From contig JAFGYB010000008.1 in the NCBI GenBank assembly GCA_016936355.1, positions 1-64,000 on the forward strand: a stretch of DNA of 64,000 bases, in the 5' to 3' direction. Under the pieces are notes generated by a model that had not been told where the DNA came from, made no database searches, and saw only the letters and a program-made list of their open reading frames with translations. The position numbers and the translations under genes are program-made. Positions within the stretch are counted from its first letter, which is position 1. Every line of letters begins with the position of its first letter. Source of the DNA: Bacteroidales bacterium. Its GTDB lineage: Bacteria > Bacteroidota > Bacteroidia > Bacteroidales > F082. Shown here one piece after another: positions 21,666 to 35,364 of this stretch.

Positions 21666-22322
21666 CTATTGGTCTGAATTCTGTTCGCTCCACAATTGAG
21701 GATCCTTCCGCCACTGCTTTAAAGATGCCAGTGCGTCTTTGGACACATATTCCTGTTTAACGGCCGCTTCGATCAGGTGATCATAGTCAGACAGAGAAAC
21801 CAACCGGCAACGAGCTTCTTCGAAGTTCGTCTGGGCAATTTCCAGTCCGTACGTAAAAACCGAAACCATTCCCAGCACTTCCACTCCGGCTTCTCTGAGT
21901 GCCTCCACGGCCAGCAGACTGCTTTTCCCGGTGGAAACCAAATCTTCCACTACCAGCGCCTTTTGTCCGGACTTTACGTGTCCTTCAATTTGATTCGTCA
22001 TTCCGTGGTCCTTTTTCCCGGCACGGACATAAGCAAAGGGCAAATCCAGTTCTTCCGCCACCAGGGCTCCCTGGGGGATACCGGCGGTTGCTACACCTAC
22101 GACTATGTCTGTCTCCTGAAAGAAGGTTGTAGCCGCCCGGTACAGTTGCTGGCGGATGTAGTTGCGCACCTTCGGATAAGAAAGCGATACCCGGTTGTCA
22201 CAATAAATAGGTGAACGCAAACCCGAAGCCCAGGTAAAGGGTTTTTCGGGACTCAGTTGAATGGCTTTTACCTCCAATAAATGAAGGGCTACCTGTCGTG
22301 CTGTTTCTTGTGAAAAAATCAT
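21666..22322 (-). CDS. pyrE: Orotate phosphoribosyltransferase
   Basis: PyrE makes orotidine 5'-phosphate from orotate and PRPP in pyrimidine synthesis. The protein is 218 residues from ATG 22322. It has WASGLRSPIYCDNR near the N terminus, the flexible catalytic loop VRAGKKDHGMTNQIEG with several basic residues, and the PRPP-binding VLVVEDLVSTGKSSLLAVEALREAG-type segment (here ALVVEDLVSTGKSS). A longer reading from 22364 adds 14 residues that are not family-like. It diverges from moxR. Confidence 0.96.
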   Translation of the reverse strand: MIFSQETARQVALHLLEVKAIQLSPEKPFTWASGLRSPIYCDNRVSLSYPKVRNYIRQQLYRAATTFFQETDIVVGVATAGIPQGALVAEELDLPFAYVRAGKKDHGMTNQIEGHVKSGQKALVVEDLVSTGKSSLLAVEALREAGVEVLGMVSVFTYGLEIAQTNFEEARCRLVSLSDYDHLIEAAVKQEYVSKDALASLKQWRKDPQLWSEQNSDQ

Positions 22323-22540
22323 GTCCAAAGATAGCAAGTTTTCATGTTTTACTGAAAACTTCAACTTTTTTTAAGATTGTACTTTTTCTCTGAATTTTGT
22401 CCCGTCAAAAATCATTATCTTGGCCTTTTTTTCGAGATATTTTTCTCTTTAATAATTTCTAAATGTCTTTAACATACATTAACAAGATGTATAATAACCA
22501 AGACATTATATTTGCTACTCAATTAAAAATTCAATAAAAA

Positions 22541-23533
22541 ATGGTAGAAACCGATATTCGCGAACTCAACGAAAAAATTAAGAATGAGCGACAATTCATC
22601 GACCTGATTAAAATGGAGATGAATAAGGTAATTGTAGGTCAGCAACACATGACCGAACGGCTCCTCATCGGCTTGCTGGCCAACGGGCATATTTTGCTGG
22701 AAGGGGTTCCCGGGCTGGCCAAAACACTGGCCATTAACACACTGGCCAAAATCATCGACGCCAAGTTCAGCCGCATACAGTTTACTCCCGACCTGTTGCC
22801 TGCCGACTTGTTGGGAACTATGATTTACAGTATTAAAAAGGAGGAATTTCAAATCAGAAAAGGGCCCATTTTTGCCAACTTCATTCTGGCCGACGAAATC
22901 AACCGTTCTCCTGCCAAAGTGCAGAGTGCCTTGCTGGAAGCCATGCAGGAACGCCAGGTGACCATTGGTGAAGAAACCTTCAAGCTGGAAGAACCGTTCC
23001 TGGTGATGGCCACACAGAACCCCATCGAACAGGAAGGAACCTATCCGTTGCCCGAGGCACAGGTGGACCGGTTTATGCTGAAGGTGGTGATCAACTATCC
23101 CAAAAAGGAAGAAGAAAAACAAATTCTCCGCCAGAACATCACTTCGCAACAAGCCAAGGTTCAAACGGTGTTGAAACCCGAAGACGTGATCAAAGCCAGG
23201 GATCTGGTGCGTCAGATTTATCTGGATGAAAAAATTGAGAACTACATTACCGATATTGTCTTTGCTTCAAGGTATCCTGAAAACTTCGATATGAAAAAAT
23301 ATTCCGGTCTGATTTCCTACGGTGCCTCTCCCCGTGCCAGTATCAACCTGGCTCTGGCTTCCAAAGCACTGGCCTTTATCAAAGGGCGTGGGTATGTGAT
23401 TCCGGAAGATGTACGTGCTGTGGCCCATGATGTAATGCGTCACCGCATTGGTCTGACCTACGAAGCCGAAGCCGAAAACATCACCAGCGAAGACATTATT
23501 AATGAAATTCTGAACTCTGTGGAGGTACCGTAA
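22541..23533 (+). CDS. moxR: MoxR family AAA+ ATPase
   Basis: A 330-residue MoxR-type AAA+ chaperone that heads the aerotolerance (Bat) operon and is thought to mature or remodel the von Willebrand factor A-domain proteins encoded after it. It has Walker A GVPGLAKT (about 58-65), Walker B LADEINRSPAKVQSALLEAM, and the sensor region ATQNPIEQEGTYPLPEAQ with an arginine finger in VDRF. A -7-like TATATTTG lies at 22507-22514, 26 nt before the ATG, with no clear -33 box. In related genomes the DUF58 gene usually follows directly; here a foreign-looking unit intervenes. Confidence 0.96.
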   Translation: MVETDIRELNEKIKNERQFIDLIKMEMNKVIVGQQHMTERLLIGLLANGHILLEGVPGLAKTLAINTLAKIIDAKFSRIQFTPDLLPADLLGTMIYSIKKEEFQIRKGPIFANFILADEINRSPAKVQSALLEAMQERQVTIGEETFKLEEPFLVMATQNPIEQEGTYPLPEAQVDRFMLKVVINYPKKEEEKQILRQNITSQQAKVQTVLKPEDVIKARDLVRQIYLDEKIENYITDIVFASRYPENFDMKKYSGLISYGASPRASINLALASKALAFIKGRGYVIPEDVRAVAHDVMRHRIGLTYEAEAENITSEDIINEILNSVEVP

Positions 23534-23574
23534 CAAGTTCAGAGATTAGAGTTCAGAGATTAGAGTTCAGAGTT
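23534..23574 (-). repeat. Left heptad array, AACT+NNN in minus orientation
   Basis: It begins on the base after the moxR stop codon. On the minus strand it reads as five in-phase 7-bp units plus a partial one, core AACT (two units have ATCT) followed by three variable bases. It is the inverted counterpart of the array at 24021-24139. Confidence 0.85.
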
Positions 23575-23602
23575 TGAAGCAATAAAAGTTAATAATAATA
23601 TA

Positions 23603-23995
23603 ATGACATCATTTAATCGCTTTGAAGAAATCGAAGTCTGGCAAAAAGCCAGAGCACTTGCGAAAGTGATTTATGATGTTGTTTCAACCCCACCTTTTAA
23701 CAATGACAATAAATTGCGTTTACAAATGTTGGGGTCATCAGGATCAATTATGGACAATATTGCTGAAGGACAAGGGAGAGGCGGTAACAAAGAATTCAAA
23801 CAGTTTTTATGGATCGCGAAAGGCTCATCTACGGAATTAAGGTCCCAACTCTACAGATCGCTTGACAGAAATTTTATTGAGGAACAAACCTTTAATGATC
23901 TGTCTGAAAAAGCTAATGAAATTGAAAAAATGATCATGGGAATGATTCGTTATTTAGATACTACCGAAAAAAAGGGTATTAAATATAAAAGCTAA
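23603..23995 (+). CDS. Four-helix-bundle protein (23S rRNA IVP / Avd-like family)
   Basis: A 130-residue all-helical protein. The start RFEEIEVWQKARALAKVIYDVV and the middle SGSIMDNIAEGQGRGGNKEFKQFLWIAKGSSTELRSQL are the hallmarks of the S23/intervening-sequence protein family. Members are found in insertions within 23S rRNA genes and, as Avd, beside reverse transcriptases in diversity-generating retroelements. No rRNA or reverse transcriptase is present here. The gene is visibly richer in A+T than moxR and bat genes, and it separates two genes that are normally adjacent. Its molecular role in this setting is unknown. Confidence 0.88.
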   Translation: MTSFNRFEEIEVWQKARALAKVIYDVVSTPPFNNDNKLRLQMLGSSGSIMDNIAEGQGRGGNKEFKQFLWIAKGSSTELRSQLYRSLDRNFIEEQTFNDLSEKANEIEKMIMGMIRYLDTTEKKGIKYKS

Positions 23996-24020
23996 AATCT
24001 GGACTCAAGACTTATATAGA

Positions 24021-24139
24021 AACTTAAAACTCTAAACTCAGAACTAAAAACTCAAAACTATAAACTCAGAACTATAAACTCAGAACTAGATACTCAAAAC
24101 TATAAACCCGGAACAATAAACTCTAAACTTAAGACTCAG
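24021..24139 (+). repeat. Right heptad array, AACT+NNN x17
   Basis: Seventeen head-to-tail 7-bp units with no phase slip. The core is AACT; four units show one changed core base (TACT, AACC, AACA, GACT). The variable triplet is most often CAG, ATA, CTA, CAA or TAA. The array stops one base before the ATG of the DUF58 gene. Looser units precede it at 24001-24014. Confidence 0.92.
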
Positions 24140-24140
24140 A

Positions 24141-25016
24141 ATGGAAGCACAGGAATTATTTAAAAAGGTAAGAAAGATAGAGATCAAAACACGGGGGTTG
24201 TCGCAGCAGATTTTCTCGGGCGAATACCACAGTGTTTTCAAGGGCCGGGGGATGGCCTTCAGCGAAGTACGCGAATATCAGTTCGGTGACGACGTGCGCA
24301 GCATTGACTGGAACGTGACCGCACGGTTTAACCATCCCTTTGTAAAGGTCTTTGAAGAAGAGCGCGAACTGACGGTCATGTTGCTGATCGACGTATCGGG
24401 TTCCAACAATTTTGGAACGCACAAACAGCTGAAGCAGGAACTCATTACCGAAATCGCAGCCGTCCTCTCCTTTTCTGCCATTCAGAATAACGACAAGGTG
24501 GGGGTCATTTTCTTTTCGGATCAAATTGAAAAATTTATTCCTCCCAAGAAAGGAACCAGCCACATCCTGCGCATCATCAGAGAACTGGTGGACTTCCGTT
24601 CCGAAAATACCGGAACCAATGTTTCGGAAGCGCTGCGTTACTTGACCAATGTCATTAAAAAACGGGCCACCGCCTTCTTGATTTCCGACTTCATGGACGA
24701 CAACATGGAAAAATCCGTGCAGATTGCCCGCCACAAACACGACCTTATTGCCATCCGTATTACCGACCAGAGGGAAATGGAAATGCCCGATGTGGGCCTC
24801 GTGTACATGACGGATGCCGAAACCGGAGAACAGACCTGGGTCAATACCGGAAGCAGCAGGGTTAGGATGCGGTACAACGAATGGGCTACCAACAAAAGCC
24901 GGGAGCTGGACACCCTTTTCAAACGACTGGGGGTAGACATGGCCAAAATAAATACCGGTGAAGATTATGTAAAACCGCTCATCAATCTGTTTAAAAAGAG
25001 AGAAGCACGGAGTTAA
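24141..25016 (+). CDS. DUF58 domain protein of the Bat operon
   Basis: A 291-residue soluble protein with the DUF58 block GRGMAFSEVREYQFGDDVRSIDWNVTAR (about residues 37-63) followed by a von Willebrand factor A-like fold whose metal-site strand reads MLLIDVSGSNNFG. DUF58 proteins typically sit directly after moxR and are thought to be part of the MoxR-assisted complex. The ATG lies one base after a 17-unit heptad array, so any untranslated leader made from an upstream transcript would carry the array. It is followed after 12 nt by the next operon gene. Confidence 0.93.
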   Translation: MEAQELFKKVRKIEIKTRGLSQQIFSGEYHSVFKGRGMAFSEVREYQFGDDVRSIDWNVTARFNHPFVKVFEEERELTVMLLIDVSGSNNFGTHKQLKQELITEIAAVLSFSAIQNNDKVGVIFFSDQIEKFIPPKKGTSHILRIIRELVDFRSENTGTNVSEALRYLTNVIKKRATAFLISDFMDDNMEKSVQIARHKHDLIAIRITDQREMEMPDVGLVYMTDAETGEQTWVNTGSSRVRMRYNEWATNKSRELDTLFKRLGVDMAKINTGEDYVKPLINLFKKREARS

Positions 25017-25028
25017 TACGATACAAAA

Positions 25029-26042
25029 ATGATGAATAAGAACTATTTTCCGGCTCTGCTGAGTATCCTGTTTTTGTTATTGGGAACCGGTCTGCGGGCA
25101 CAACAGCTTCCTGCTGTTCAGGCCACGCTGGATACCAATGCCATCATGATCGGTGATCAGATCGGCCTGAACCTGAAAGTGGATGTACCCAAAGGATATC
25201 AGGTATACTGGCCGTTCCTGCAGGATACACTGGCTCCGCATATTGAAATGATCCGGGCCGAAAAAACGGATTCCGTTTTGAAAAACGATGAAATCCAATA
25301 CCACAGGAAAATCATCATCACTTCCTTCGACTCAGGAGCCTTCACAGTCCCTTCTTTTGTTTTCCACATCCGAAACACCAGTACCGGACAAGTGGATTCG
25401 CTCACAACCGATGAGATGCCCCTCCGGGTTTTCACCCCGATGGTGGACACAGCGAAGGCTTTTAAGGTCATCAAAGGACCCGAATCCGTGCCCTATACTT
25501 TTGCTGAATTGCTGCCCTGGATTTTCCTGGTGCTGGCCGTGATCATCGCCATCATCCTCGTCGTTTGGTATGTCCGAAACGGCAAAAAAGGGAAACCGTT
25601 GTTTGCCCGAAAGCCCAAACCCAAGTTACCTCCGTACGAACAGGCCATCAAACAACTGGAAGAATTGCGCCTGAGTAAGATTTGGCAGTCCGGAAAACTG
25701 AAAGAATACTACACGGGCATTACCGACATCATGCGCGAATACTTCACCGATCGCTATCATTTTGAAGCCTGGGAAATGACCTCGGACGAGATGATCCACG
25801 AACTCAAGGACAAGAAGATCAACGATCAGGCTATGTCGAAAGTAAAGTCCACGCTGGAACTGGCCGACCTGGTGAAATTTGCCAAGGCTCAGCCTACGGC
25901 CCTGGAAAACGATACCGCCCTCAACTACTGTATAGATTTCGTCAACGAAACCCGACCGGTCGTTGAGACACCCGAACAAAATATCAACCTGGATGAAGGG
26001 GATAAAACAAAGGTAGAACCCGAAAAAAAGAAGGAGGACTAA
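25029..26042 (+). CDS. Bat-operon membrane protein, BatD-like periplasmic region
   Basis: A 337-residue protein: a signal peptide (about 1-24, ending LRAQQ), a periplasmic beta-rich domain (about 25-160), one transmembrane helix (about 165-188) and a cytoplasmic helical part (about 200-320) with a charged tail. This protein regularly lies between the DUF58 gene and batA in Bacteroidota. A second Met immediately follows the first, so the exact start is uncertain by one codon. The end of the gene carries GGAGG 8 nt ahead of the batA ATG. Function is unknown beyond the operon context. Confidence 0.8.
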   Translation: MMNKNYFPALLSILFLLLGTGLRAQQLPAVQATLDTNAIMIGDQIGLNLKVDVPKGYQVYWPFLQDTLAPHIEMIRAEKTDSVLKNDEIQYHRKIIITSFDSGAFTVPSFVFHIRNTSTGQVDSLTTDEMPLRVFTPMVDTAKAFKVIKGPESVPYTFAELLPWIFLVLAVIIAIILVVWYVRNGKKGKPLFARKPKPKLPPYEQAIKQLEELRLSKIWQSGKLKEYYTGITDIMREYFTDRYHFEAWEMTSDEMIHELKDKKINDQAMSKVKSTLELADLVKFAKAQPTALENDTALNYCIDFVNETRPVVETPEQNINLDEGDKTKVEPEKKKED

Positions 26043-26045
26043 AGC

Positions 26046-27041
26046 ATGTTTGGAATTGACACCTGGAGGAGTCCCGAGTTTTTGTATCTGCTCTTGCTGA
26101 TACCCCTGTTGATTGTGTGGTATATTTTCAGGGAGCGCAAAAGCCACCCGGAGCTGCGTTTTTCAGGCATAACCGCATTCAAAAACCTGGGAAAAAGCAC
26201 CAAAGCCGGACTCAGACACAGTATGTTTGTGTTGCGTATGCTGGCGCTGGCGCTGCTGATCATTGCGCTGGCCCGTCCGCAAGCCGTTTCCTCCAAAAAG
26301 AATGTAAACATCCAGGGAATAGACATCGTACTGGCGCTGGACGTTTCGGGGAGTATGAGAGCCCGCGACTTTACCCCGGACCGCATCGGTGCCGCCAAGA
26401 AAATTGCAGGCCAGTTTATCCGCGAGCATCCCAACGACCGGATCGGATTGGTTATTTTCAGCGGTGTGGCCTTTACACAGGCCCCCCTAACCACCGATCA
26501 TTCCATGGTCATCAAACTGCTGGACGAAGTGAAAAGCGGCATGATTGAAGACGGAACCGCTATTGGCGACGGGCTGGCAACAGCTGTCAGCCGGTTGCAG
26601 GATTCCAAAGCCAAATCGAAGGTTATTATTTTGCTTACCGACGGAGTCAACAACATGGGTTCCATCGATCCGCAGTCGGCGGCTGAAATGGCTAAATTAT
26701 ACGGCATCAGGGTGTACACCATTGGTATTGGCACCGAAGGCTATGCTCCCTATCCGGTGCAAACCCCTTACGGGATCCAAATGCAGCAAATGAAAGTACA
26801 GATCGATCAGGATCTGTTGAAGAAAATTGCGGCAGAAACCGGTGGAAAATATTACAGAGCCGAAAACAACGACAAACTGAAATCTGTTTTCGGTGACATC
26901 AGTAAATTGGAAAAATCAAAAATCACCGTGCATCAGTTCGAGAAAAAGACCGAGCTCTTTTTCCCCTTTGCACTGCTGGCGTTGATATTGTTTGTTTTGG
27001 AAGTGAGTTTGCGGTATCTCGTATTCAGAAAACTTCCATAA
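26046..27041 (+). CDS. batA: BatA, von Willebrand factor A-domain membrane protein
   Basis: A 331-residue protein with N-terminal membrane helices (about 11-25 and 58-76), a vWA domain and a C-terminal helix (about 305-325). The metal-ion-dependent adhesion site is complete: VLALDVSGSMRARDF (DxSxS), the Thr in TQAPLTTDHS, and the Asp in LLTDGVNNMG. BatA and BatB were described in aerotolerance operons of Bacteroides and related bacteria; their ligand is unknown. An AAGGAGG motif lies 8 nt before the ATG, unusual in this phylum. Confidence 0.94.
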   Translation: MFGIDTWRSPEFLYLLLLIPLLIVWYIFRERKSHPELRFSGITAFKNLGKSTKAGLRHSMFVLRMLALALLIIALARPQAVSSKKNVNIQGIDIVLALDVSGSMRARDFTPDRIGAAKKIAGQFIREHPNDRIGLVIFSGVAFTQAPLTTDHSMVIKLLDEVKSGMIEDGTAIGDGLATAVSRLQDSKAKSKVIILLTDGVNNMGSIDPQSAAEMAKLYGIRVYTIGIGTEGYAPYPVQTPYGIQMQQMKVQIDQDLLKKIAAETGGKYYRAENNDKLKSVFGDISKLEKSKITVHQFEKKTELFFPFALLALILFVLEVSLRYLVFRKLP

Positions 27042-27054
27042 ATACAGAAAAGAC

Positions 27055-28083
27055 ATGATTCAGTTTGAACATAAAGAATTTTTTTGGGCCTATTTGCTGC
27101 TGCTCTTTTTCCTGGTGATTTACGGGGGATACCGTGCCTGGAGGAGAAAAGCATGGAAACGATTCGGTGACGGAACGCTGACCAGCCGGCTGGTGATGCA
27201 GCGGTCGGGTCTGCGCAATGCCCTTCGGTTTTTGTTTTTGATGATGGCTCTGTTTTTCCTCGTTGGCGGACTGATTGATCCCAAGATCGGATCGAGGCTG
27301 GAGAAGGTAAAACGTAAAGGGATTGACCTGTACATCGCCATTGACGTTTCCAATTCCATGCTGGCTCAGGACATCAAACCCGACCGGCTGGACCGCGCTA
27401 AAATGGCCGTCTCCAACCTCATCGACAAACTCAACGGCGACCGCATCGGTTTGATCGTCTTTGCCGGTCAGGCTTTTAAACTGCTGCCCCTGACCACCGA
27501 TTATTCGGCAGCCAAGTTGTTTTTATCGTCTGTCGACACCAAGATTGTCCCGACCCAGGGTACGGCCATCGGTTCGGCCATCAACCTGGCCACCCAGTCG
27601 TTCGACAACGACAAACACAACAAAGCCATTATTGTCATCACCGACGGCGAAAACCACATGGGCGATGCCGTGGGAGCGGCCAAAGCTGCAGCCGAAAATC
27701 ACATCCGTGTGTTTACCATCGGTATGGGATTGCCCGAAGGAGCCCCCATTCCCATGAACAACGACAGCCAGAATCCCGATTTCCTCAGAGATCAGAACGG
27801 AAAAATCGTCATCACCAAACTGAACGAAACCATGCTGCAGCAGATTGCCGCTGCCGGAAACGGGGCGTATGCCCGCGCCAACAATGCCAGCGTGGGGCTG
27901 GATCAAATCCTCGACAACCTGAACAAAATCCAGAAACAGGAAATCGAAGAAAAACAATTTACCGATTATGTGCACCGCTTCCAGTATTTCCTGGCAGCCG
28001 CCATTTTCTTCCTGATTCTGGAATTGCTTACGGTGGAACGCAAACCCAACTGGACCGACAAATTTGATTTTTTTGGAAAATGA
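27055..28083 (+). CDS. batB: BatB, von Willebrand factor A-domain membrane protein
   Basis: A 342-residue paralogue of BatA with the same plan: N-terminal helices (about 8-25 and 55-75), a vWA domain and a C-terminal helix (about 307-327). The metal site reads YIAIDVSNSMLAQDI, with LLPLTTDYSAAK and VITDGENHMGDA. Two adjacent vWA membrane proteins are the mark of Bat operons. The last codon and TGA overlap the batC ATG by 4 nt (28080-28083), indicating coupled translation. Confidence 0.94.
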   Translation: MIQFEHKEFFWAYLLLLFFLVIYGGYRAWRRKAWKRFGDGTLTSRLVMQRSGLRNALRFLFLMMALFFLVGGLIDPKIGSRLEKVKRKGIDLYIAIDVSNSMLAQDIKPDRLDRAKMAVSNLIDKLNGDRIGLIVFAGQAFKLLPLTTDYSAAKLFLSSVDTKIVPTQGTAIGSAINLATQSFDNDKHNKAIIVITDGENHMGDAVGAAKAAAENHIRVFTIGMGLPEGAPIPMNNDSQNPDFLRDQNGKIVITKLNETMLQQIAAAGNGAYARANNASVGLDQILDNLNKIQKQEIEEKQFTDYVHRFQYFLAAAIFFLILELLTVERKPNWTDKFDFFGK

Positions 28084-28892
28084 ACATGAACCACAGAAAT
28101 AAAATAGTATTTGGAGCCGTTACCCTGCTCGTTTCACTGATGACACTGCCTGTCTTCGGACAGAATGTCAACAAAATGGTGCGGAAAGGGAACAAGGAAT
28201 TCGATAAGGGGAAATTTTCCGATGCGGAAGTGCTGTACCGAAAAGCACTGGTAAAAAATCCCAAGTTTGAAAAAGCCAATTTCAATCTGGGCGATGCCTT
28301 GTACAAGGAAAAAAACTACGAAAGCGCCGGAAAACAGTTTATGAACCTTTCCAAGAAGGGCACTTCTGACCAGCTGAAAGCCAAATCGTGGTACAACCTG
28401 GGAAATACCCTGATGCAAAAGAAACAGTACGAACAAAGTATTGGCGCTTACATCAACTCCTTACGGCTGAATCCCAAGGACTACAACGCCAAATACAACC
28501 TGGAATATGCCCGCAAGATGTTGAAAAAACAAAACCAGAACAAGAAGAACAACCAAAACAAAAAGAATCAGAACAAGAAAAATCAAAACAAAAAAAACCA
28601 GAATAAAAAGAACGACAAGAACAAGCAAAACAAGAAGGATCAGAACAAGAATAAAAACGATCAAAACAAACAACAGAACAAAAACAACCAGAATAAACAG
28701 AATAACCAGAATAAGAACGATCAGAACAAGCAACAAAACAAACAGCAGGGAGGTCAGCGTCCTCAGATGACCAAGGCTGAAGCACAGCGCATGCTGGATG
28801 CGTTGCGTAACAGCGAAAAAGGAACGTTGAAAAAACTGGAAAAGAAAAAAGCCAAAAAGGTAAAAGGCAAACCCGATGTCATCAACTGGTAG
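28080..28892 (+). CDS. batC: BatC, TPR protein with Asn/Lys/Gln-rich linker
   Basis: A 270-residue protein: signal peptide (about 1-28), TPR units (about 30-145: GNKEFDKGKFSDAEVLYRKAL, NLGDALYKEKNYESAGKQF, YNLGNTLMQKKQYEQSIGAY), then a linker of about 76 residues made almost only of Asn, Lys and Gln with a few Asp (149-224). It ends in a short conserved segment (KAEAQRMLDALRNSEKGTLKKL). It is predicted to be periplasmic, where the TPRs could contact BatA, BatB or BatD. The linker's codons give a strongly A-rich repeat that may vary in length between strains. Confidence 0.9.
   Translation: MNMNHRNKIVFGAVTLLVSLMTLPVFGQNVNKMVRKGNKEFDKGKFSDAEVLYRKALVKNPKFEKANFNLGDALYKEKNYESAGKQFMNLSKKGTSDQLKAKSWYNLGNTLMQKKQYEQSIGAYINSLRLNPKDYNAKYNLEYARKMLKKQNQNKKNNQNKKNQNKKNQNKKNQNKKNDKNKQNKKDQNKNKNDQNKQQNKNNQNKQNNQNKNDQNKQQNKQQGGQRPQMTKAEAQRMLDALRNSEKGTLKKLEKKKAKKVKGKPDVINW
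28524..28751 (+). repeat. A-rich imperfect coding repeat in batC
   Basis: In-frame low-complexity tract encoding repeated NQNKKNQNKK-type units, with mixed AAC/AAT, AAA/AAG and CAA/CAG codons. The period is irregular (12-18 nt). Codon mixing means it is not a pure slippage tract. Confidence 0.85.
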
Positions 28893-28913
28893 GATGACCG
28901 ACCGAAACGTTGC

Positions 28914-28943
28914 TTTGGCAATGAAAAATAAATTCTATTTTTG
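28914..28943 (+). promoter_or_regulatory. Internal promoter upstream of batD
   Basis: TTTG (28914-28917), an 18-nt spacer, then TATTTTTG (28936-28943), a full match to the phylum's -33/-7 pattern. It lies in the only sizeable gap (74 nt) between bat genes, 23 nt before the batD ATG, and would allow batD-batE to be expressed separately. Confidence 0.55.
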
Positions 28944-28966
28944 AACAAAAATATTAAAGCCCAACT

Positions 28967-30829
28967 ATGAAAAAGAGCGGAATATATATCTTATTTCTCC
29001 TGTTGTTTGGCTGGCAATGGGCTCAGGCCGCCGACAACGTCAGATTTACTGCTTCGGCACCGGAAGAAGTGGCAGTGGGACAGCAGTTTCAGATCGTATT
29101 TCAGGTCAATGGTAACGGAAAGGGCTTTACGGCTCCCGACTTCAAGGGGCTGACCGTTTTGTCGGGACCCAATACCTCTACCAGTTCCAGTCTCCAGTTC
29201 ATCAATGGGAAAATGAGCCAGTCCTACACCATCACTTTTTCCTACATCGTGATGGCGGAAAAAACCGGCACTTTTTATGTACAGCCGGCCATCATTACCG
29301 TCGACGGCAAACAATACCGGTCCGATAAACTGCAGATTGATGTGGTGAAGGGATCGCCCCGAAACAATCCCGCCGGAAACCCCGGCCAAAGAACCGGTAC
29401 GAGCGGCACTGTTCAGGGCAATAACGGACAAATCACCGCCAAAGATGTGTTTGTGAAAGCCACCGTCAACAACGCGCATCCGTATATGGGGCAGCAGGTG
29501 GTGGTAACCTATAAGATTTATACCCGGGTTCCCGTTTCCAACCTGGCCATCAACAAGGTTTCCTCTTTCAAGGGATTCTGGTCGCAGGACCTGTTGAGCG
29601 ACAACGCCCGCATTCAGCAGAGCAACGAAACCATCGACGGACAACAATATGTGGTGGCTGTGATCCGGAAACTGGCCCTCATCCCGCAACAAGTCGGAAA
29701 ACTGACCATCGACCCCATGCAACTCAACTGTGTGGTGCAGCTGCGCGTGCAGCGGCAACGCAGCGGCGATCCGTTTGACGACTTCTTCAACGATCCGTTC
29801 TTCAATCAAAACGTGAAGAACATCAACAAAACACTGGTAGCTAATGCCGTGCACATCGATGTGAAACCGCTTCCCGAAGCAGGCAAACCGGCTTGTTTCT
29901 CAGGGGCTGTGGGTGATTTCAAATTCGAAACCAGTGTGGACAAAACCAGTCTGAGTACCAACGATGCGCTGACCTATACCATCAACCTTACCGGCAGAGG
30001 CAACATCGAGCTGATCGATGCCCCCAAAGTAGGCTTCCCCAGCGACTTTGAAACGTACGATCCGAAGATCGTGGACAACACCATCAAAACCGACATCGGA
30101 ATCTCAGGCAGCAAGAAATTTGAATACCTTGCCATCCCCCGGAATCCGGGTGACTTTACCATCGATCCGGTGAAATTCTGTTACTTCAATCCGGCCGATA
30201 AAAAATACCACACCCTCACTTCCCCTTCCTACAAAATCCATGTGGTGAAAGGAAAAGGCGGGGGCAACAACATGGTGTACACGGGCAACGCCCAGGAAGA
30301 CATCCAGTTCCTCGGCAAAGACATCCGGCACATCGAAAGCGGTCCGTATAATTTTGTCAAAGTCAATACCTATCTGTTTGGCTCGGTGCTTTTCTACATT
30401 CTGATGCTCATCCCTGTGGTGCTGCTGATCGTTGCTCTTATTCTGCGTAAGGTCATCGAAAACCGCAAGGCCAATGTATCGCTGTTGAAAAACAGGAAAG
30501 CCAATAAGGTGGCCCGTACCAAACTGATGAAAGCACAGAAGATCAAGAAAACCGGAAACGACAAAGCCTTTTACGACGAAATCGCCCTGGCTTTGTGGGG
30601 ATACATTGCCGATAAGTTCGACTTAAAACAAAGTGATCTTTCCATGGATTCCGTCAGGGAAAAACTGGAACAGCGACAGGTGGCTGAAGAAACCATTACC
30701 GGGTTCATCAGTACGCTGAACAATATTGAATATGCCCGTTTTGCTCCCGGCAATACCCGCGATAAAATGGAAAACATTTATGCGGAAGCCCTGAGCGCCA
30801 TCATGCAGGCAGAGAAATCACTGAAATAA
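28967..30829 (+). CDS. batD: BatD, large periplasmic oxygen-tolerance protein
   Basis: A 620-residue protein with a signal peptide (about 1-22) and repeated beta-sandwich domains (about 25-430). The start VRFTASAPEEVAVGQQFQIVFQVNGNGKGFTAPDF is characteristic of BatD. One transmembrane helix follows (about 470-492), then a basic cytoplasmic region (about 500-615) with an alpha-helical end. It would connect the periplasm with the cytosolic MoxR/DUF58 side of the complex. Two paired-sounding segments (KASVNAHPYMGQQV-like and ETSVDKTSLSTNDALTYTINLTGRG) suggest repeated Ig-like folds. An internal promoter precedes it. Confidence 0.93.
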   Translation: MKKSGIYILFLLLFGWQWAQAADNVRFTASAPEEVAVGQQFQIVFQVNGNGKGFTAPDFKGLTVLSGPNTSTSSSLQFINGKMSQSYTITFSYIVMAEKTGTFYVQPAIITVDGKQYRSDKLQIDVVKGSPRNNPAGNPGQRTGTSGTVQGNNGQITAKDVFVKATVNNAHPYMGQQVVVTYKIYTRVPVSNLAINKVSSFKGFWSQDLLSDNARIQQSNETIDGQQYVVAVIRKLALIPQQVGKLTIDPMQLNCVVQLRVQRQRSGDPFDDFFNDPFFNQNVKNINKTLVANAVHIDVKPLPEAGKPACFSGAVGDFKFETSVDKTSLSTNDALTYTINLTGRGNIELIDAPKVGFPSDFETYDPKIVDNTIKTDIGISGSKKFEYLAIPRNPGDFTIDPVKFCYFNPADKKYHTLTSPSYKIHVVKGKGGGNNMVYTGNAQEDIQFLGKDIRHIESGPYNFVKVNTYLFGSVLFYILMLIPVVLLIVALILRKVIENRKANVSLLKNRKANKVARTKLMKAQKIKKTGNDKAFYDEIALALWGYIADKFDLKQSDLSMDSVREKLEQRQVAEETITGFISTLNNIEYARFAPGNTRDKMENIYAEALSAIMQAEKSLK

Positions 30830-30843
30830 AGAACAAGGAAGAA

Positions 30844-31608
30844 ATGAAACGACAACTGAAATACTTCTTTTTGTTACTCGTGCTGGCAGCAGGCCCGACG
30901 CTTCGGGCTGCCAACCCCGATTCGCTGATGACCCAGGCCAACCGGGCCTACGACGCCCAAAAATACGATACGGCCATCGACCTGTACAACCGGGTTCTGA
31001 ACGAAGGCTGGGTGTCGCCCAAGCTGTACTACAACCTGGGCGATTCCTATTTCCGTAAGAAGAACCTTCCCGAGGCAATTCTGTACTACGAAAAAGCCAA
31101 AAAACTGGACCCCAACAACGAAAACATCCAGTACAACCTGGGCATTGCCAACTCCATGATCGTGGACAAGATCGATCAGGTGCCCCAGTTCTTTCTGAAA
31201 CGCTGGTGGAATTATTTCTACAACTTATTCGATGCGGATACCTGGACGGTCTTTTTCCTGATCTCCTTTGCCCTGCTGGTGCTGTTTGTAGGGATATTCT
31301 TCTTTTCGCATACCCGCCGAAACCGCCAGTGGTCGTTTTTTGTGGCGCTGCTGTTTCTGATTATCACCGCGGGCAGCCTGGGGCTGGCCTCCCAGCGGAC
31401 CTATTACAACAAAAACCAGAAAGAAGCCATTGTCTTTACCCCTTCCGTGACGGTGAAAAGTTCTCCGTCGCCCAATTCGGTGGACCTGTTTGTGATCCAC
31501 GACGGCACCAAGGTTAGAATCCTCGATCATGTGGACGGCTGGATCAAGATCAAAATCTCCAACGGAAGCATCGGCTGGCTGCCTGAAGTTTCGGTGAAGA
31601 CGATTTAG
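30844..31608 (+). CDS. batE: BatE, TPR and SH3-like membrane protein
   Basis: A 254-residue protein with a signal peptide or N-terminal helix (about 1-21), TPR repeats (about 25-100: ANRAYDAQKYDTAIDLYNRVL and YYNLGDSYFRKKNLPEAILYYEKAKKLDPNN), two transmembrane helices (about 135-155 and 165-185) and a C-terminal SH3-like domain (about 195-254: VKSSPSPNSVDLFVIHDGTKVRILD ... GWIKIKISNGSIGWLP). It ends the Bat operon, 14 nt after batD. No terminator hairpin follows immediately; the next 566 nt are repeat-rich and gene-free. Confidence 0.92.
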   Translation: MKRQLKYFFLLLVLAAGPTLRAANPDSLMTQANRAYDAQKYDTAIDLYNRVLNEGWVSPKLYYNLGDSYFRKKNLPEAILYYEKAKKLDPNNENIQYNLGIANSMIVDKIDQVPQFFLKRWWNYFYNLFDADTWTVFFLISFALLVLFVGIFFFSHTRRNRQWSFFVALLFLIITAGSLGLASQRTYYNKNQKEAIVFTPSVTVKSSPSPNSVDLFVIHDGTKVRILDHVDGWIKIKISNGSIGWLPEVSVKTI

Positions 31609-31623
31609 TTTTCCTTCTTCCAT

Positions 31624-31686
31624 AGTTCAATTCTGAGGATCCCGATTTATCGGGAGGCCGCGAGAATCTTATCTTCATTACGGGAC
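31624..31686 (+). repeat. Direct repeat, copy 1
   Basis: Begins AGTTCAATTCTGAGGATCCC and contains the palindrome CCCGATTTATCGGG, ending ACGGGAC. It is about 80% identical over 63 nt to 31951-32013, with the first 22 bases unchanged. Confidence 0.85.
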
Positions 31687-31765
31687 AGAAAAAATCTTTT
31701 TTTTCATTTTCATTGTTGCACTTTAGCGGTGTTCAAGCTGTGCTTCCCTAATAGCCCGTTAAAGG

Positions 31766-31820
31766 ACGTTTCTATATCTTAGCTATAAGCTAGCTATAGG
31801 ATAGCTATATGCTTCCTATA
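31766..31820 (+). repeat. 11-bp array, NNN+TAGCTATA x5
   Basis: Five contiguous 11-bp units. The three middle units have a perfect TAGCTATA core; the outer two read TTTCTATA and TTCCTATA. Each core is preceded by three variable bases (ACG, TCT, AGC, GGA, TGC). Confidence 0.82.
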
Positions 31821-31950
31821 AGCCCGACCGGCCCATATCGTTTTTGGATTGGGAACTTCCTGAATTGCACAGGACCCGGGTCCTGATACCGGTCAGACGC
31901 ATGAATCCATCCACGATCCACCTCCTCAGAGTTAAACTAATATAATTAGT

Positions 31951-32013
31951 AGTTCAATTCTGAGGATCCCGACTTGTCGGGCGACGTGAGCATCTTAAGG
32001 TATTCTACGGGAA
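31951..32013 (+). repeat. Direct repeat, copy 2
   Basis: Second copy of the 31624-31686 element, same orientation, with the palindrome as CCCGACTTGTCGGG: two stem-loop bases changed but the symmetry kept. About 264 nt separate the copies. Confidence 0.85.
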
Positions 32014-32027
32014 CAAACCGATGACAG

Positions 32028-32059
32028 GTGACGGGGTGACTGAGTGACACGGTGACAAG
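32028..32059 (+). repeat. Octamer array, GTGAC+NNN x4
   Basis: Four perfect GTGAC cores at 8-bp spacing, with variable triplets GGG, TGA, ACG and AAG. It has the same core, period and copy number as the array upstream of radC (173-204), in the opposite orientation. Confidence 0.9.
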
Positions 32060-32085
32060 AAACAAAGTTTAATTCGCACACACCG

Positions 32086-32138
32086 GCGCGCGCATGCTGC
32101 GCGTGCTTTCTATCTGGCGCGCGTTTTCAACGCGTGCC
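32086..32138. repeat. Pair of G+C-rich hairpins
   Basis: Hairpin 1 (32086-32106) has 9-bp arms and the loop TGC; hairpin 2 (32116-32138) has 10-bp arms and the loop TTC. Each has a single G-T wobble and shares the sequence CGCGTGC in the right arm. They are 9 nt apart. No U-run follows on the plus strand, so they do not look like terminators. The layout resembles REP/BIME-type elements. Confidence 0.65.
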
Positions 32139-32174
32139 CATTTGATTCCAGCATTTGCCATACAGGTTTGAAGA

Positions 32175-32441
32175 TTACAACGTTTTTTTTCTAACCAGCC
32201 AGAGTTTAATGGTGTAGTAAACGGTTGAAACGGCACCGGCAATCGCGGTCAGGGCAGTCAAAAAGATCAGCCAGGCATCAGCCCGGGTTACGGGTCTCAT
32301 GGTGCTCACAGTTATCCCGTTGTCGTAGGTATGGTCAGTGTGCACCATATATTGATACAGGTAGAAGTAGAGAAACAATCCCGCGAAAACCAGGAGGGTC
32401 AGCGAAACGACCGCTTTTCTTTTGAGTTTTTGTGATTTCAT
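32175..32441 (-). CDS. Small two-helix membrane protein, unknown
   Basis: An 88-residue protein I do not recognise. It has two hydrophobic helices (about 10-29 and 56-78) with a basic N terminus and C terminus, so both ends are predicted to face the cytosol with a ~25-residue periplasmic loop. It starts 13 nt after another small membrane protein on the same strand, and the two may form a pair. It could be a real gene or a poorly constrained frame; the paired layout favours the former. Confidence 0.5.
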   Translation of the reverse strand: MKSQKLKRKAVVSLTLLVFAGLFLYFYLYQYMVHTDHTYDNGITVSTMRPVTRADAWLIFLTALTAIAGAVSTVYYTIKLWLVRKKTL

Positions 32442-32454
32442 CCTGTGGGTTGGT

Positions 32455-32724
32455 TCAATTGTTAATAGGTGATGTGCCTGTCTTTTTTCTCAGGATTCTT
32501 TTCCCGAAGATCAGCAGAAACACGAAGACCAGGAACGATACAATGGTTAAAGCAAAGAAAATATCAAATTGCAGGAACAAATCCCTTCCGCTGGTTCCCG
32601 AAATACGGCCGGCGCCATCGGTTTCATACTTTAAACTGACCATGGTATCCAGTATCCGGTAAAAGAAATAAGGGATCCCTGAAAAGGAGAGCAACAAAAG
32701 AAGATAGTAGACCTTTTTGTTCAT
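32455..32724 (-). CDS. Small two-helix membrane protein, unknown
   Basis: An 89-residue protein of unknown family with two hydrophobic helices (about 4-24 and 52-75) and basic ends (KKVYY at the start, GKRILRKKTG near the end). Its size and topology mirror the gene that follows it at 32175-32441, though sequence similarity between the two is not evident by eye. No neighbour suggests a function. Confidence 0.5.
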   Translation of the reverse strand: MNKKVYYLLLLLSFSGIPYFFYRILDTMVSLKYETDGAGRISGTSGRDLFLQFDIFFALTIVSFLVFVFLLIFGKRILRKKTGTSPINN

Positions 32725-32810
32725 GAAGCAAATTGTAAACGCGAATATACGTTTTTATTGACCTTTCACCGGGAACTGAAACGCGGACGAGGGAGGATAA
32801 ATAGCCTGAC

Positions 32811-32893
32811 CGCATCCAATAAACGACTGACCGGACCCAACAAAGTGCCGACTGCGCCTCATCAAGTTCAGACTGTATCGCATAAAGGTCAGG
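32811..32893. repeat. Degenerate ~21-23-nt tandem repeat
   Basis: Three to four diverged units resembling CG-(C/G)A-CCAA-AAA-GACTG, roughly 21, 23, 21 and 18 nt long. The match is loose. Confidence 0.35.
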
Positions 32894-32950
32894 CAGGCTG
32901 GAATCTCTCAACCGGAGCATGTGCTTTATAAATTCGGCCTTTGATACGAT

Positions 32951-32980
32951 GAGATCCTTCACTCCGTTCAGGATGACAGG
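32951..32980. repeat. Dispersed-type palindromic repeat fragment
   Basis: GAGATCCTTCACTCCGTTCA followed by GGATGACAGG, containing ATCCT...AGGAT arms. Similar 'ATCCTTC-CTCCG-TCAGGATGACA' elements recur in intergenic DNA of many unrelated bacteria. It lies in the 343-nt gene-free stretch 32725-33067. Confidence 0.6.
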
Positions 32981-33011
32981 AAAAGGATGCTGTGGAGGGG
33001 AATTATGGGGC

Positions 33012-33045
33012 AAAAAAATAACTGCCCTGAAACAGAGCAGTTATT
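33012..33045 (-). terminator. Rho-independent terminator of the V-type ATPase operon
   Basis: On the minus strand, a 9-bp stem (AATAACTGC/GCAGTTATT; 33017-33045) with an 11-nt loop is followed by a run of T (33018-33012). It lies 22 nt after the subunit K stop codon. Confidence 0.85.
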
Positions 33046-33067
33046 GTAACGTTTTTGCAGTGGGTGA

Positions 33068-33526
<459 letters not shown>

Positions 33527-33549
33527 TTATTAATAAGTGATTTTTAAAA

Positions 33550-35364
33550 TTATTTCTTAAACGGTTTATATGCAACGCCGCCTCCTTCGAAACCGGCATT
33601 TTTGTAAAATTCAACAAAAGTCAAACGCAACGGGTGTACCATGGAGCCCAGTCCCGACATGAAGATGTTGATCGAATGACCGATCAAAAGTACAAACAAC
33701 ATGAGCACAATGCCCACAATCTGCATTCCGATGGACGCAGAGGGATCAAATAATTTGGTCCCCAGCTCGTTGAACACCAGTCCGAGAATAGCCGTGGCCA
33801 GCCCCAAAGCGAACAAACGCACGTAGGAAAGCAAGTCGCCTACGCCGCCGACCACCGTATTGTATGCATCCCAGAGCCCAACCCCGAAGTTGTAGAACGG
33901 ATTCTTTCCGGGTGAGTTCAGGAAGAAGATGGCAAACAGGGAACTACCGGCCAGGATGTAATAATAAATATTACCGAAGCTGATGATGCCTTCCTTAGAC
34001 AACAAGTAGTTGACGCCCGAGAAAATGATCAAAAAGGCCCAGCCCAACACGGACAGTGCATGACGGATCCCTTTCTGACGGGTGATCTTGGTAGCATTGA
34101 TAAACATCCCCAGCAGGATCTGAATCAATCCCAGTCCCAGCGAAGAAACAAACATCAGGTTCTGAATAGTCAGTCCCGATGCCTTCAGTTTAGCCGCTAC
34201 CTGGGCAAAGCCCGGCAGGTTGGTTCCGTACAGGTTGATACCAAAGGCCGTTCCGGTGAGCAGTCCGAAAATAATGGTGGACAGCCCCAGCAACTGAACC
34301 ATGGTCAGAATCTTGGCATTTTCCTTTTGTTTCTTTTTCATGAAGGTGGCAGCGCCCACAAAGAGCAAACCGTACCCGGCATCGCCGAGGCAGAAGCCGA
34401 AGAACATCCAGTAGAAAAAGGCCACAAAAGGTGTTAAGTCGATTTCGTTGTAATTGGGCAGACTGTACAGTTCGCCGATCATTTCAAACAACTGGTTGAT
34501 TTTGTTGTTTTTCAGTTTGATGGGAACCTTGTCTTCTTCTTCTGGGGCGCGCTTTTCGAAGAAAACCCCTTCGTGGCTCAGCGCAGCCTCCAATTGTTCC
34601 GACTGTTGCACAGGCACCCAGCCTTCCAGCACGGCTACCGTAGCATCGGCAACCCGTTCGCTGCCCTTTACGATTTTTGAAAAATCCAGCTGATTTCTGA
34701 TTTCCAGTTCGTATTGCTGCAGTGTGTCGGCTTGGGCGGCCAGTTTGGAAAATTCCTCCTGAATGGTATGCAGCTGTGCTTCCACCTGTTCTTTCCTTTC
34801 GATGGTTTCCAGCAAACTGGTATCAGGAAGTTTCAGCGGATCAATTTCAAAATCGGGCGCTTTCGGTGAATCCGAAACCACCACGAAAAAGATCTGCGAT
34901 CCAATCTGTTTTAATCGGAATACATCGTGCAGTTCTTCCCATTCCTCGGAATAATCCTTGATGCTGGTATGGAAAATGTGCAGATAGTATCCGTTGTCGT
35001 TTAATCTGGAAACCAGGGCCGGGTCGAACTGTCCCAACGGTTCCAGTTGCGAGATTTGTTTCTTCAAATGGTCTTTCTGCTGGAGCAGCTGCTCGCGCCG
35101 GTCGATGAGTTCATCGTATTTTTGAATGATCTGATCGCCGGTGAGCTGTTCGGTAGCCTCAACAGGTTCCAGTTTATTCAGTTGCTTCAGCACCTGGGTG
35201 GTCTTCCGGTTGTGTTCCATGAGGGCGGCAATTTCGCTGTGCTCCGACAGGTTTTCACCGGTCAGTTCCACATGCACCACGCCTTTTTCCCTCAGGTTTT
35301 CCAGGAAGGCTTCGTATTCCTTATGATACACCAGGAAGGCATATTTTTGCATTTTTTCGATCAT
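33550..35364 (-). CDS. ntpI: V-type ATP synthase subunit I (stator a subunit)
   Basis: A 604-residue subunit that forms the ion half-channels and the stator link. The N-terminal ~320 residues are soluble and largely coiled coil (repeated Glu/Gln/Leu-rich segments about 50-110 and 185-235). The C-terminal half has about seven or eight transmembrane helices, with DAGYGLLFVG and VGDLLSYVRLFALGLATAILG; the latter holds the conserved Arg facing the rotor. The ATG overlaps the subunit D stop by 4 nt. A full AAAGGAGG lies 7 nt before it, at 35372-35379, inside subunit D. Confidence 0.96.
   Translation of the reverse strand: MIEKMQKYAFLVYHKEYEAFLENLREKGVVHVELTGENLSEHSEIAALMEHNRKTTQVLKQLNKLEPVEATEQLTGDQIIQKYDELIDRREQLLQQKDHLKKQISQLEPLGQFDPALVSRLNDNGYYLHIFHTSIKDYSEEWEELHDVFRLKQIGSQIFFVVVSDSPKAPDFEIDPLKLPDTSLLETIERKEQVEAQLHTIQEEFSKLAAQADTLQQYELEIRNQLDFSKIVKGSERVADATVAVLEGWVPVQQSEQLEAALSHEGVFFEKRAPEEEDKVPIKLKNNKINQLFEMIGELYSLPNYNEIDLTPFVAFFYWMFFGFCLGDAGYGLLFVGAATFMKKKQKENAKILTMVQLLGLSTIIFGLLTGTAFGINLYGTNLPGFAQVAAKLKASGLTIQNLMFVSSLGLGLIQILLGMFINATKITRQKGIRHALSVLGWAFLIIFSGVNYLLSKEGIISFGNIYYYILAGSSLFAIFFLNSPGKNPFYNFGVGLWDAYNTVVGGVGDLLSYVRLFALGLATAILGLVFNELGTKLFDPSASIGMQIVGIVLMLFVLLIGHSINIFMSGLGSMVHPLRLTFVEFYKNAGFEGGGVAYKPFKK

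Follow-up and report, generated by a model that had tools for sequence, protein, structure and literature searches.

A PF05635 gene between inverted heptad arrays in the moxR–DUF58 gap of a Bacteroidales genome: a probable member of a class of hairpin-bounded insertion units

The stretch of Bacteroidales DNA analysed here (64 kb in full, hereafter the window) contains a compact unit that fills the gap between a moxR gene and a DUF58/VWA gene (Table 1). It probably belongs to a widespread class of hairpin-bounded insertion units, in which a PF05635 gene is looped between inverted tandem heptad arrays and, as a rule, lies in sense orientation in an operon gap. Our best reading is that it is an intergenic counterpart of the intervening-sequence elements of rRNA and that the arms are its own ends. 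Across the family, arms match within a copy, their motif differs between sites and their polarity is tied to the gene; a single site may be occupied in one genome and unoccupied in another, and gene-less hairpin forms occur at one site.

Anatomy of the unit and the family around it

Table 1. Features of the unit and its two host genes (window coordinates)
Feature	Position	Strand	Evidence
moxR (AAA_3 + AAA_lid_2), upstream host gene; stop TAA at 23531-23533	22541..23533	+	Pfam
Whole putative insertion unit, 607 bp, filling the moxR-DUF58 gap	23534..24140	+	Gene-less gaps in 11 same-genus relatives searched
Left array, six heptads, G-rich arm; heptads 1-5 of NNNNNAG type (AGTTCAG/AGATTAG), sixth AGTTTGA	23536..23577	+	TRF
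130-aa four-helix-bundle gene, PF05635 23S_rRNA_IVP / TIGR02436	23603..23995	+	Profile matches; PDB 2gsc
Right array, inverted heptads (AACTNNN), C-rich arm, from about 24020, flush with the DUF58 start codon	24020..24140	+	TRF
DUF58/VWA gene, downstream host gene; ATG at 24141	24141..25016	+	Pfam

The initial annotation, made from the window's sequence, had described inverted heptad arrays around one gene as filling this gap, and the layout holds from stop codon to start codon. The right array abuts the DUF58 ATG as described, whereas the left array begins two bases later than proposed; it had been placed on the base directly after the moxR stop, and the bases CA intervene. From there AGTTCAG (first, third and fifth heptads) alternates with AGATTAG (second and fourth) before the closing AGTTTGA. 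The enclosed gene is, as had been noted, richer in A+T than its neighbours, with a GC content of 0.354 against 0.474 for moxR and 0.483 for DUF58; the left and right gaps stand at 0.275 and 0.297. Its product belongs to PF05635 (E 9.3e-33; 113.1 bits against a curated cut-off of 33.8) and to TIGR02436 (E 3e-31; 107.8 bits against a cut-off of 24), and it matches PDB 2gsc with an E value of 3.7e-07.

Both arrays stand out from shuffled sequence. On the right side, ACT recurs in one 7-nt register in 15 of the 20 heptads cut from 23996-24140, the maximum over 20,000 dinucleotide-block shuffles being 7, while the AGT register count of 4 in the left array was equalled in 15 of 20,000 shuffles. Only four segments of the window exceed a lag-7 score of 0.50, namely the two arrays and two segments within the coding frame 28523-28876. 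Aligned over 46 columns, the left arm and the reverse complement of the right arm score 42, which places the unit's own right arm first among 98 possible right flanks. The unit thus shares with rRNA intervening sequences a family ORF inside terminal inverted-repeat arms, which are paired with each other in the predicted fold. No Rfam match exceeded its gathering score in window 22000-34000, and the unit lies between two protein-coding genes rather than inside a 23S rRNA helix.

Several further repeats were observed elsewhere in the window. An octad array at 168-207, TTTGTCAC, lies just upstream of a likely start codon at about 226, with no inverted partner noticed. An apparently intergenic stretch holds an 11-mer array at 31780-31823, TAGCTATAAGC, an octad array of GTGAC type at 32022-32057, and a 32-nt direct repeat (31623-31654 and 31950-31981; 94% identical) with a small palindrome at its end.

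The source genome (G000) encodes six family members (L001-L006), the window unit being L002. Inverted-arm scores are 42 for L002, 33 for L006 and 30 for L005, followed by 20 for L001 and 16 each for L003 and L004; three of the six therefore exceed the 95th-percentile value of 23, a proportion that we count against the insertion-unit reading. An in-frame stop shortens the called frame of L003, so that its right flank was taken from a wrong starting point. On visual inspection, four of the five other members carry array-like flanking repeats that differ in motif and are inverted between the two sides. The fifth, L004 (G000:C50), is a longer member (166 aa as called) devoid of arrays, and it may be an ordinary resident gene, since similarly scoring open frames of 183-227 aa are found repeatedly in genomes of the same genus.

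The family itself is common. PF05635 is present in 34 of the 40 genomes of the relatives set and in 116 of 148 sampled genomes of the phylum (both counts including the source genome), as well as in 74 of 146 genomes of a sample drawn around the Candidatus Gastranaerophilales genome G187, which carries L215 and which we take to belong to Cyanobacteriota. Of 107 protein pairs from the same genome (29 genomes), 4 reach 60% identity. A tblastn search of a phage collection returned no match. Outside rRNA inserts and Avd, we know of no established role for these proteins.

Inverted arms and their polarity

For each member, we compared the left flank with the reverse complement of its own right flank, taking percentiles of swapped partners as thresholds. 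The relatives set comprised 103 unique members, drawn from the initial loci and from 60 further stretches taken from among the matches listed; 100 were left after a filter on protein and flank length and 98 after N removal. An inverted match above the 95th percentile was found in 58 of the 98 (39 above the 99th), and a direct match in 29 (22 above the 99th); a rerun within the control script gave 58 and 34 for inverted matches. Among ordinary ORFs of a single control genome (G005), the corresponding inverted counts were 29 and 9 of 313 (direct, 32 and 23), and among those with ample intergenic space 15 and 6 of 89 (direct, 16 and 7).

The search of the genome and its relatives that the initial annotation had called for thus recovers the same layout around many family genes, in two bacterial phyla. 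The annotation had also named array-less members elsewhere as evidence against itself, and here the outcome is divided: inverted arms are common, yet in about 40% of the relatives set no inverted match is significant, which, like the direct matches in 29 of the 98, we count against the insertion-unit reading, and two of seven members of at least 145 aa have one.

Further collections gave comparable proportions. In a named-genome set, mostly of Bacteroidota (the best 80 of 583 loci, giving 86 elements), 62 of the 86 elements exceeded the 95th percentile in inverted and 19 in direct orientation, and lag 7 stood out in 109 of 172 flanks. Inverted matches were likewise recovered in 19 of 30 elements of the phylum sample and in 26 of 38 of the cyanobacterial set, six of which come from named cyanobacterial plasmids. 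Some loci of these collections stem from metagenome-assembled genomes, whose taxonomy may be wrong. A further set of 40 elements, which played no part in forming hypotheses yet comes mostly from genomes already sampled, yielded 20 above the 95th and 15 above the 99th percentile. A pool of 214 elements represented 212 distinct proteins, or 249 with the cyanobacterial set, 19 of these 249 having no scored neighbour. The L152 protein equals that of L075, and the L257 protein that of L215, each being counted in two sets. As the elements are related to one another, these counts are not independent.

The period of the arrays is chiefly seven. Among 200 flanks of 100 elements, the shuffled 99th percentile was exceeded by 82 at lag 7, 53 at lag 14 and 41 at lag 8, with 22 at lag 4, 16 at lag 9, 4 at lag 5 and between 4 and 10 at every other lag. 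Some elements are spanned by long direct repeats, which were set aside as being mostly the arrays themselves, and an 85-bp coding repeat in L007 was discarded on account of an adjoining run of N.

It is very unlikely, in our estimate, that the heptamer arrays are a general product of polymerase slippage in intergenic DNA, with the gene merely lying among them. Heptamer excess has been reported in many bacteria, with slippage proposed as its source (PMC4692102), and the 15 of 89 roomy control ORFs above the inverted threshold would agree with such a background. Solo arrays also exist; the G005 sample holds 28 lag-7 intergenic arrays away from the gene, which again counts against the insertion-unit reading. 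However, when inverted matches within 400 bp of the 43 arrays in that sample (coding ones included) were ranked against the neighbourhoods of other arrays, none passed the 95th percentile; this null differs from the swapped-flank one, and two L143 pairs look inverted by eye. At more than 400 bp from family genes, lag-7 arrays number 0 in 41.2 kb of intergenic DNA from four family-less genomes, 4 in 46.3 kb from five gene-rich genomes and 14 in 65.8 kb from G005, the contrast of 0 with 4 being too small to decide alone. Across the sampled stretches and the window, strict criteria for gene-less AG/CT hairpins, which recover only 6 of the 30 fadB-fadA loci described below, identified a single locus, listed once per strand. 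Separately, about 1.5 kb of G005 (L131, 11857-13315) carries many repeats of CTATTCACCATTCATC-type heptad arrays.

Polarity sets the family further apart from ordinary ORFs. Left arms are mostly G-rich and right arms C-rich, the aligned left arms containing 1248 G and 478 C. In the relatives set, G exceeds C on the left in 78 of 98 and C exceeds G on the right in 72, as against 160 and 152 of the 313 control ORFs, which show no polarity and so speak against slippage as the whole account. The same bias is seen in the cyanobacterial set (36 and 28 of 38) and in the further set (34 and 29 of 40). Elements are co-directional with both neighbours in 202 of 230 cases, compared with 125 of 292 ordinary genes. 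Seven elements are antisense to both neighbours, and here G exceeds C on the left in six and C exceeds G on the right in all seven; similarly, on plasmid pNe_5 of Nostoc edaphicum, two ribonucleotide reductase genes adjoin the family gene in opposite orientation, and the G-rich arm lies on the family gene's own left. Arm polarity follows the enclosed gene and not the host genes.

These observations bear on whether the arrays are ends or targets, both of which the initial annotation had entertained. Had the gene inserted into a pre-existing array, a direct array would remain on each side. Direct matches do surpass the 95th percentile in the 29 elements of the relatives set given above, and 5 of 27 gene-less moxR-DUF58 gaps contain lag-7 arrays scoring above 0.571 (L041, L050, L052, L054 and the A+T-rich L056). 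Nevertheless, inverted arms are twice as common and would not arise by insertion into an array, and polarity follows the gene, making arrays as targets the less likely option and this origin most improbable. Conversely, the proposal that the arrays are the ends of an insertion unit, and that both host genes are left intact by it, gains support, because inverted pairing is common around the family and much rarer around ordinary genes, and because polarity follows the gene even in the seven antisense elements.

Arm motifs differ between sites. For members at different sites, protein identity hardly predicts arm similarity (rho 0.087; 7,929 pairs), and members within the source genome differ in array motif from site to site. 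Where members share a site, their arms become less alike as protein identity drops, with similarity values of 27.2 at 60% or more (40 pairs), 14.7 at 45-60% (49 pairs) and 10.0 at 20-45% (27 pairs). In a loose 20-member cluster near fatty-acid oxidation genes, arms match better within an element (30.2) than across elements (17.0), while two other clusters among those listed keep one motif, with same- and cross-element values of 39.5 and 38.1, and 27.7 and 28.4. Arms within an element still match while the arms of a site diverge, which suggests to us that the motif is inherited and that its two arms drift together.

AG is the commonest in-register dinucleotide of left arms, and runs of at least four occur in 26% of 249 elements, compared with 0.8% after shuffling, and in the left arms of 18 of the 40 further elements. 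Repeats wrapped by a toroidal protein have a model in TRAP. By analogy, a toroidal pentamer of the gene's product might wrap AG heptads in RNA or single-stranded DNA and thereby regulate or protect its own transcript or DNA, an idea that we hold to be quite unlikely. The prevalence of AG and the homopentameric ring reported for a family structure (PMC4990558) agree with it, as does a modest surplus of five-unit runs in right arms read as reverse complement (10, 23 and 9 runs of 4, 5 and 6). Left arms lack a clear mode at five (21, 22 and 11), the further set has none on either side (left 7, 6 and 4; right 5, 6 and 1), and the wide variation of motifs, hardly predicted by protein identity, also argues against it. 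An array sized to the pentamer was thus suggested by the right arms and left unconfirmed by the left arms and the further set.

The sense orientation of most elements could instead reflect events in RNA. By analogy with rRNA, transcribed arms might form a stem from which RNase III would cut out the loop with the gene, selection on RNA pairing keeping the arms matched; we consider this unlikely. The anatomy is that of rRNA intervening sequences, described with a 28-bp terminal stem, an S23 ORF in the loop and excision by RNase III (PMC4990558). The predicted fold of the window unit pairs both arms (z -1.78; 1 of 20 shuffles as strong), and in 90 of 249 elements the arm duplex is stronger than the swapped 5% level. 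Against such selection, G.U and A.C mismatches in sense RNA stand at 131 to 188, a ratio like that of swapped pairs (39 to 59) and hence no excess, and of the two duplexes the antisense one tends slightly to be the stronger (136 to 113, p 0.026). The window unit's duplex is unremarkable, 11% of swapped pairs being equally strong, and five of the seven antisense elements retain an inverted score of at least 23. Selection for pairing in sense RNA is accordingly unsupported by both the G.U test and the comparison of sense and antisense duplexes.

Occupancy of gaps and host stop codons

We fetched 30 DUF58 loci, one of which (L064) lacks moxR, leaving 29 moxR-DUF58 gaps. Two contain the gene, that of the source genome and that of G012, which belongs to another genus and whose protein is 25% identical and flanked by a different motif. 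The initial annotation had held that carriage of the same gene and arrays here by all close relatives would speak against an insertion; instead, the gene is absent from the gap in all 11 same-genus relatives searched, in which the gap measures 44-178 bp (45 bp in the nearest relative, G007).

A richer picture emerged from the fadB-fadA gap in the genus of Flavobacterium fluvii, for which 121 genomes were searched and the 30 gaps with the best fadA matches were read. Five are empty (3-5 bp), six hold a hairpin with the gene (441-533 bp) and 19 are occupied without it. These 19 comprise 15 that are heptad-hairpin-like, one double hairpin, two of another kind and one with an IS200-like transposase gene. 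The double hairpin (L387) consists of two different tandem hairpins with a copy of the fadA start and the fadB end in between. The transposase gene (L400, 804-1265; Y1_Tnp, E 5.3e-25) indicates that such gaps take up ordinary mobile genes too, a point against the insertion-unit reading. Against the empty gaps of 3-5 bp, no clear target duplication was visible by eye.

Host stop codons are related to the left arrays. An AG array is in register with the host stop in 19 of 29 TAG hosts, as opposed to 0 of 26 TAA and 1 of 11 TGA hosts. In TAG hosts, the last 7 nt of the gene agree with the spacer at 3.27, 3.09, 3.02 and 2.70 of 7 positions at offsets 0, 7, 14 and 21, compared with 1.5-2.35 at other offsets up to 28. 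When hosts were swapped among those sharing a stop codon, the true hosts had the higher in-register identity for TAG (p 0.005) and TGA (p 0.003), and not for TAA (p 0.36). Moreover, the host stop is TAG in 66 of 180 cases compared with 189 of 978 baseline ORFs (p 1.2e-6), and at fadB-fadA TAG occurs in 18 of 25 occupied and 0 of 5 empty gaps (p 0.0056); in the window, the moxR stop is TAA. We read the TAG register as arrays spreading outward until they meet coding constraint, the alternative being insertion at TAG. No such register links right arrays to the downstream ATG, which counts against the insertion-unit reading.

The same is true of movement, as no excision, transposition or other relocation was seen among the elements compared. 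The earlier description as a transposase-less insertion unit therefore stands in that the unit itself has no transposase, while movement of it was never seen. In G309, of the sample around G187, L353, L356-L364, L366 and L367 are near-identical dispersed family genes, many of them truncated. Transposition driven by the arms was rejected for these copies, as the shared sequence extends beyond the arrays to apparent terminal inverted repeats; since these lie outside the arrays, the arms are not the ends used there. In G244, a 2.7-kb segment is present in two copies.

We also considered helpers supplied in trans. Dependence on a reverse transcriptase was rejected, none being found in G000, G008, G015, G021 and G022, which hold 6, 6, 11, 10 and 9 family members; altogether 25 of the 40 genomes searched, the source included, have none. 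An IS200-like (Y1) transposase is encoded in 34 of the 40, again including the source, and is absent from G021 and G022. Because many-copy genomes exist without each, neither is needed to hold many copies.

Known systems, mechanism and significance

The nearest known counterparts are the intervening sequences of 23S rRNA in Coxiella, Leptospira and others, whose S23/IVP ORF occurs patchily and for which horizontal spread has been proposed (PMC4990558). Both have a protein of the same family and an ORF in the loop of a terminal inverted-repeat stem. Unlike them, the present units sit in gaps of protein operons, have tandem-heptad arms with site-specific motifs and reach several copies per genome.

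MITEs and mobile insertion cassettes have inverted ends, lack a transposase and come in gene-bearing and gene-less forms. The units share all three properties, but differ from IS elements and MITEs in having no end sequence common to copies at different sites, as the differing motifs of the source genome and the low rho indicate. A link to diversity-generating retroelements, which the initial annotation had raised, finds no support. Although 2GSC and the Avd structure 4DWL have been compared as homologues (PMC10053308), a search for RVT_1 in the source genome (assembly 94% complete) gave 0 matches.

Heptamer repeats have been described before. TAACTGA direct repeats occur in intergenic regions near start and stop codons in Beggiatoaceae, Cyanobacteria and some Bacteroidetes, with a suggested role in gene rearrangement (MacGregor 2015, PMC4679880). 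The arrays here likewise adjoin start or stop codons in intergenic DNA; in contrast to the one motif, direct arrays and single indirect repeat mentioned in that paper, their motifs differ between members and most arms are inverted. The available text of PMC4679880 contains no link to the PF05635 family, with no mention of 'four helix', 'S23' or 'intervening'. The GGGAATC and GGGGA(T/C)T heptamers of Xanthomonas and Nostoc, studied as G-quadruplex repeats, also form intergenic arrays, one of them in the pec operon (PMC4692102), but the accessible description gives them neither an enclosed gene nor an inverted partner.

Finally, 23S_rRNA_IVP genes have been noted as often lying beside cas4 and cas6 and are listed among CRISPR-Cas-associated functions (PMC3936711). 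We observed the same placement on plasmids of Pseudanabaena galeata and Anabaena sp. 90 (L308 and L310), where the family gene lies between cas6 and cas4, and we read these as operon-gap insertions rather than as a CRISPR-Cas function. Among the matches listed in a full-text search that largely excludes subscription papers, none linked the family to heptad arrays or intergenic hairpins; in the same literature TIGR02436 is not mentioned and PF05635 appears in one paper, on diversity-generating retroelements.

Under our preferred reading of an intergenic insertion unit, the arms would be the unit's own ends; slippage, together with template switching from one arm to the other, would renew them and keep them alike, and they would spread until stopped by host coding sequence. 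Such spread would explain both the fit from stop to start codon and the TAG stop that often forms the first heptad. The gene would be expressed from the host operon, and the unit may move rarely, through DNA-level machinery possibly involving the pentameric four-helix protein itself.

A bolder proposal, which we regard as possible but doubtful, is an unrecognised class of mobile hairpins whose only protein is the PF05635 product. This protein would recognise the structure and spacing of inverted AG/CT heptad arrays, and not their sequence, in acting on them; it would insert at operon stop codons without breaking either gene and mobilise gene-less hairpins in trans. If so, many of the heptamer repeats that lack an explanation in Bacteroidota and Cyanobacteriota would be a footprint of PF05635 hairpins, and the intervening sequences of rRNA would be a special case in which the hairpin landed there. 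Mobility and binding are directly testable in cultivable Flavobacterium. More broadly, polarised heptad hairpins in operon gaps give the PF05635 family a physical context and may show where heptamer repeats, for which earlier papers had no explanation, come from.
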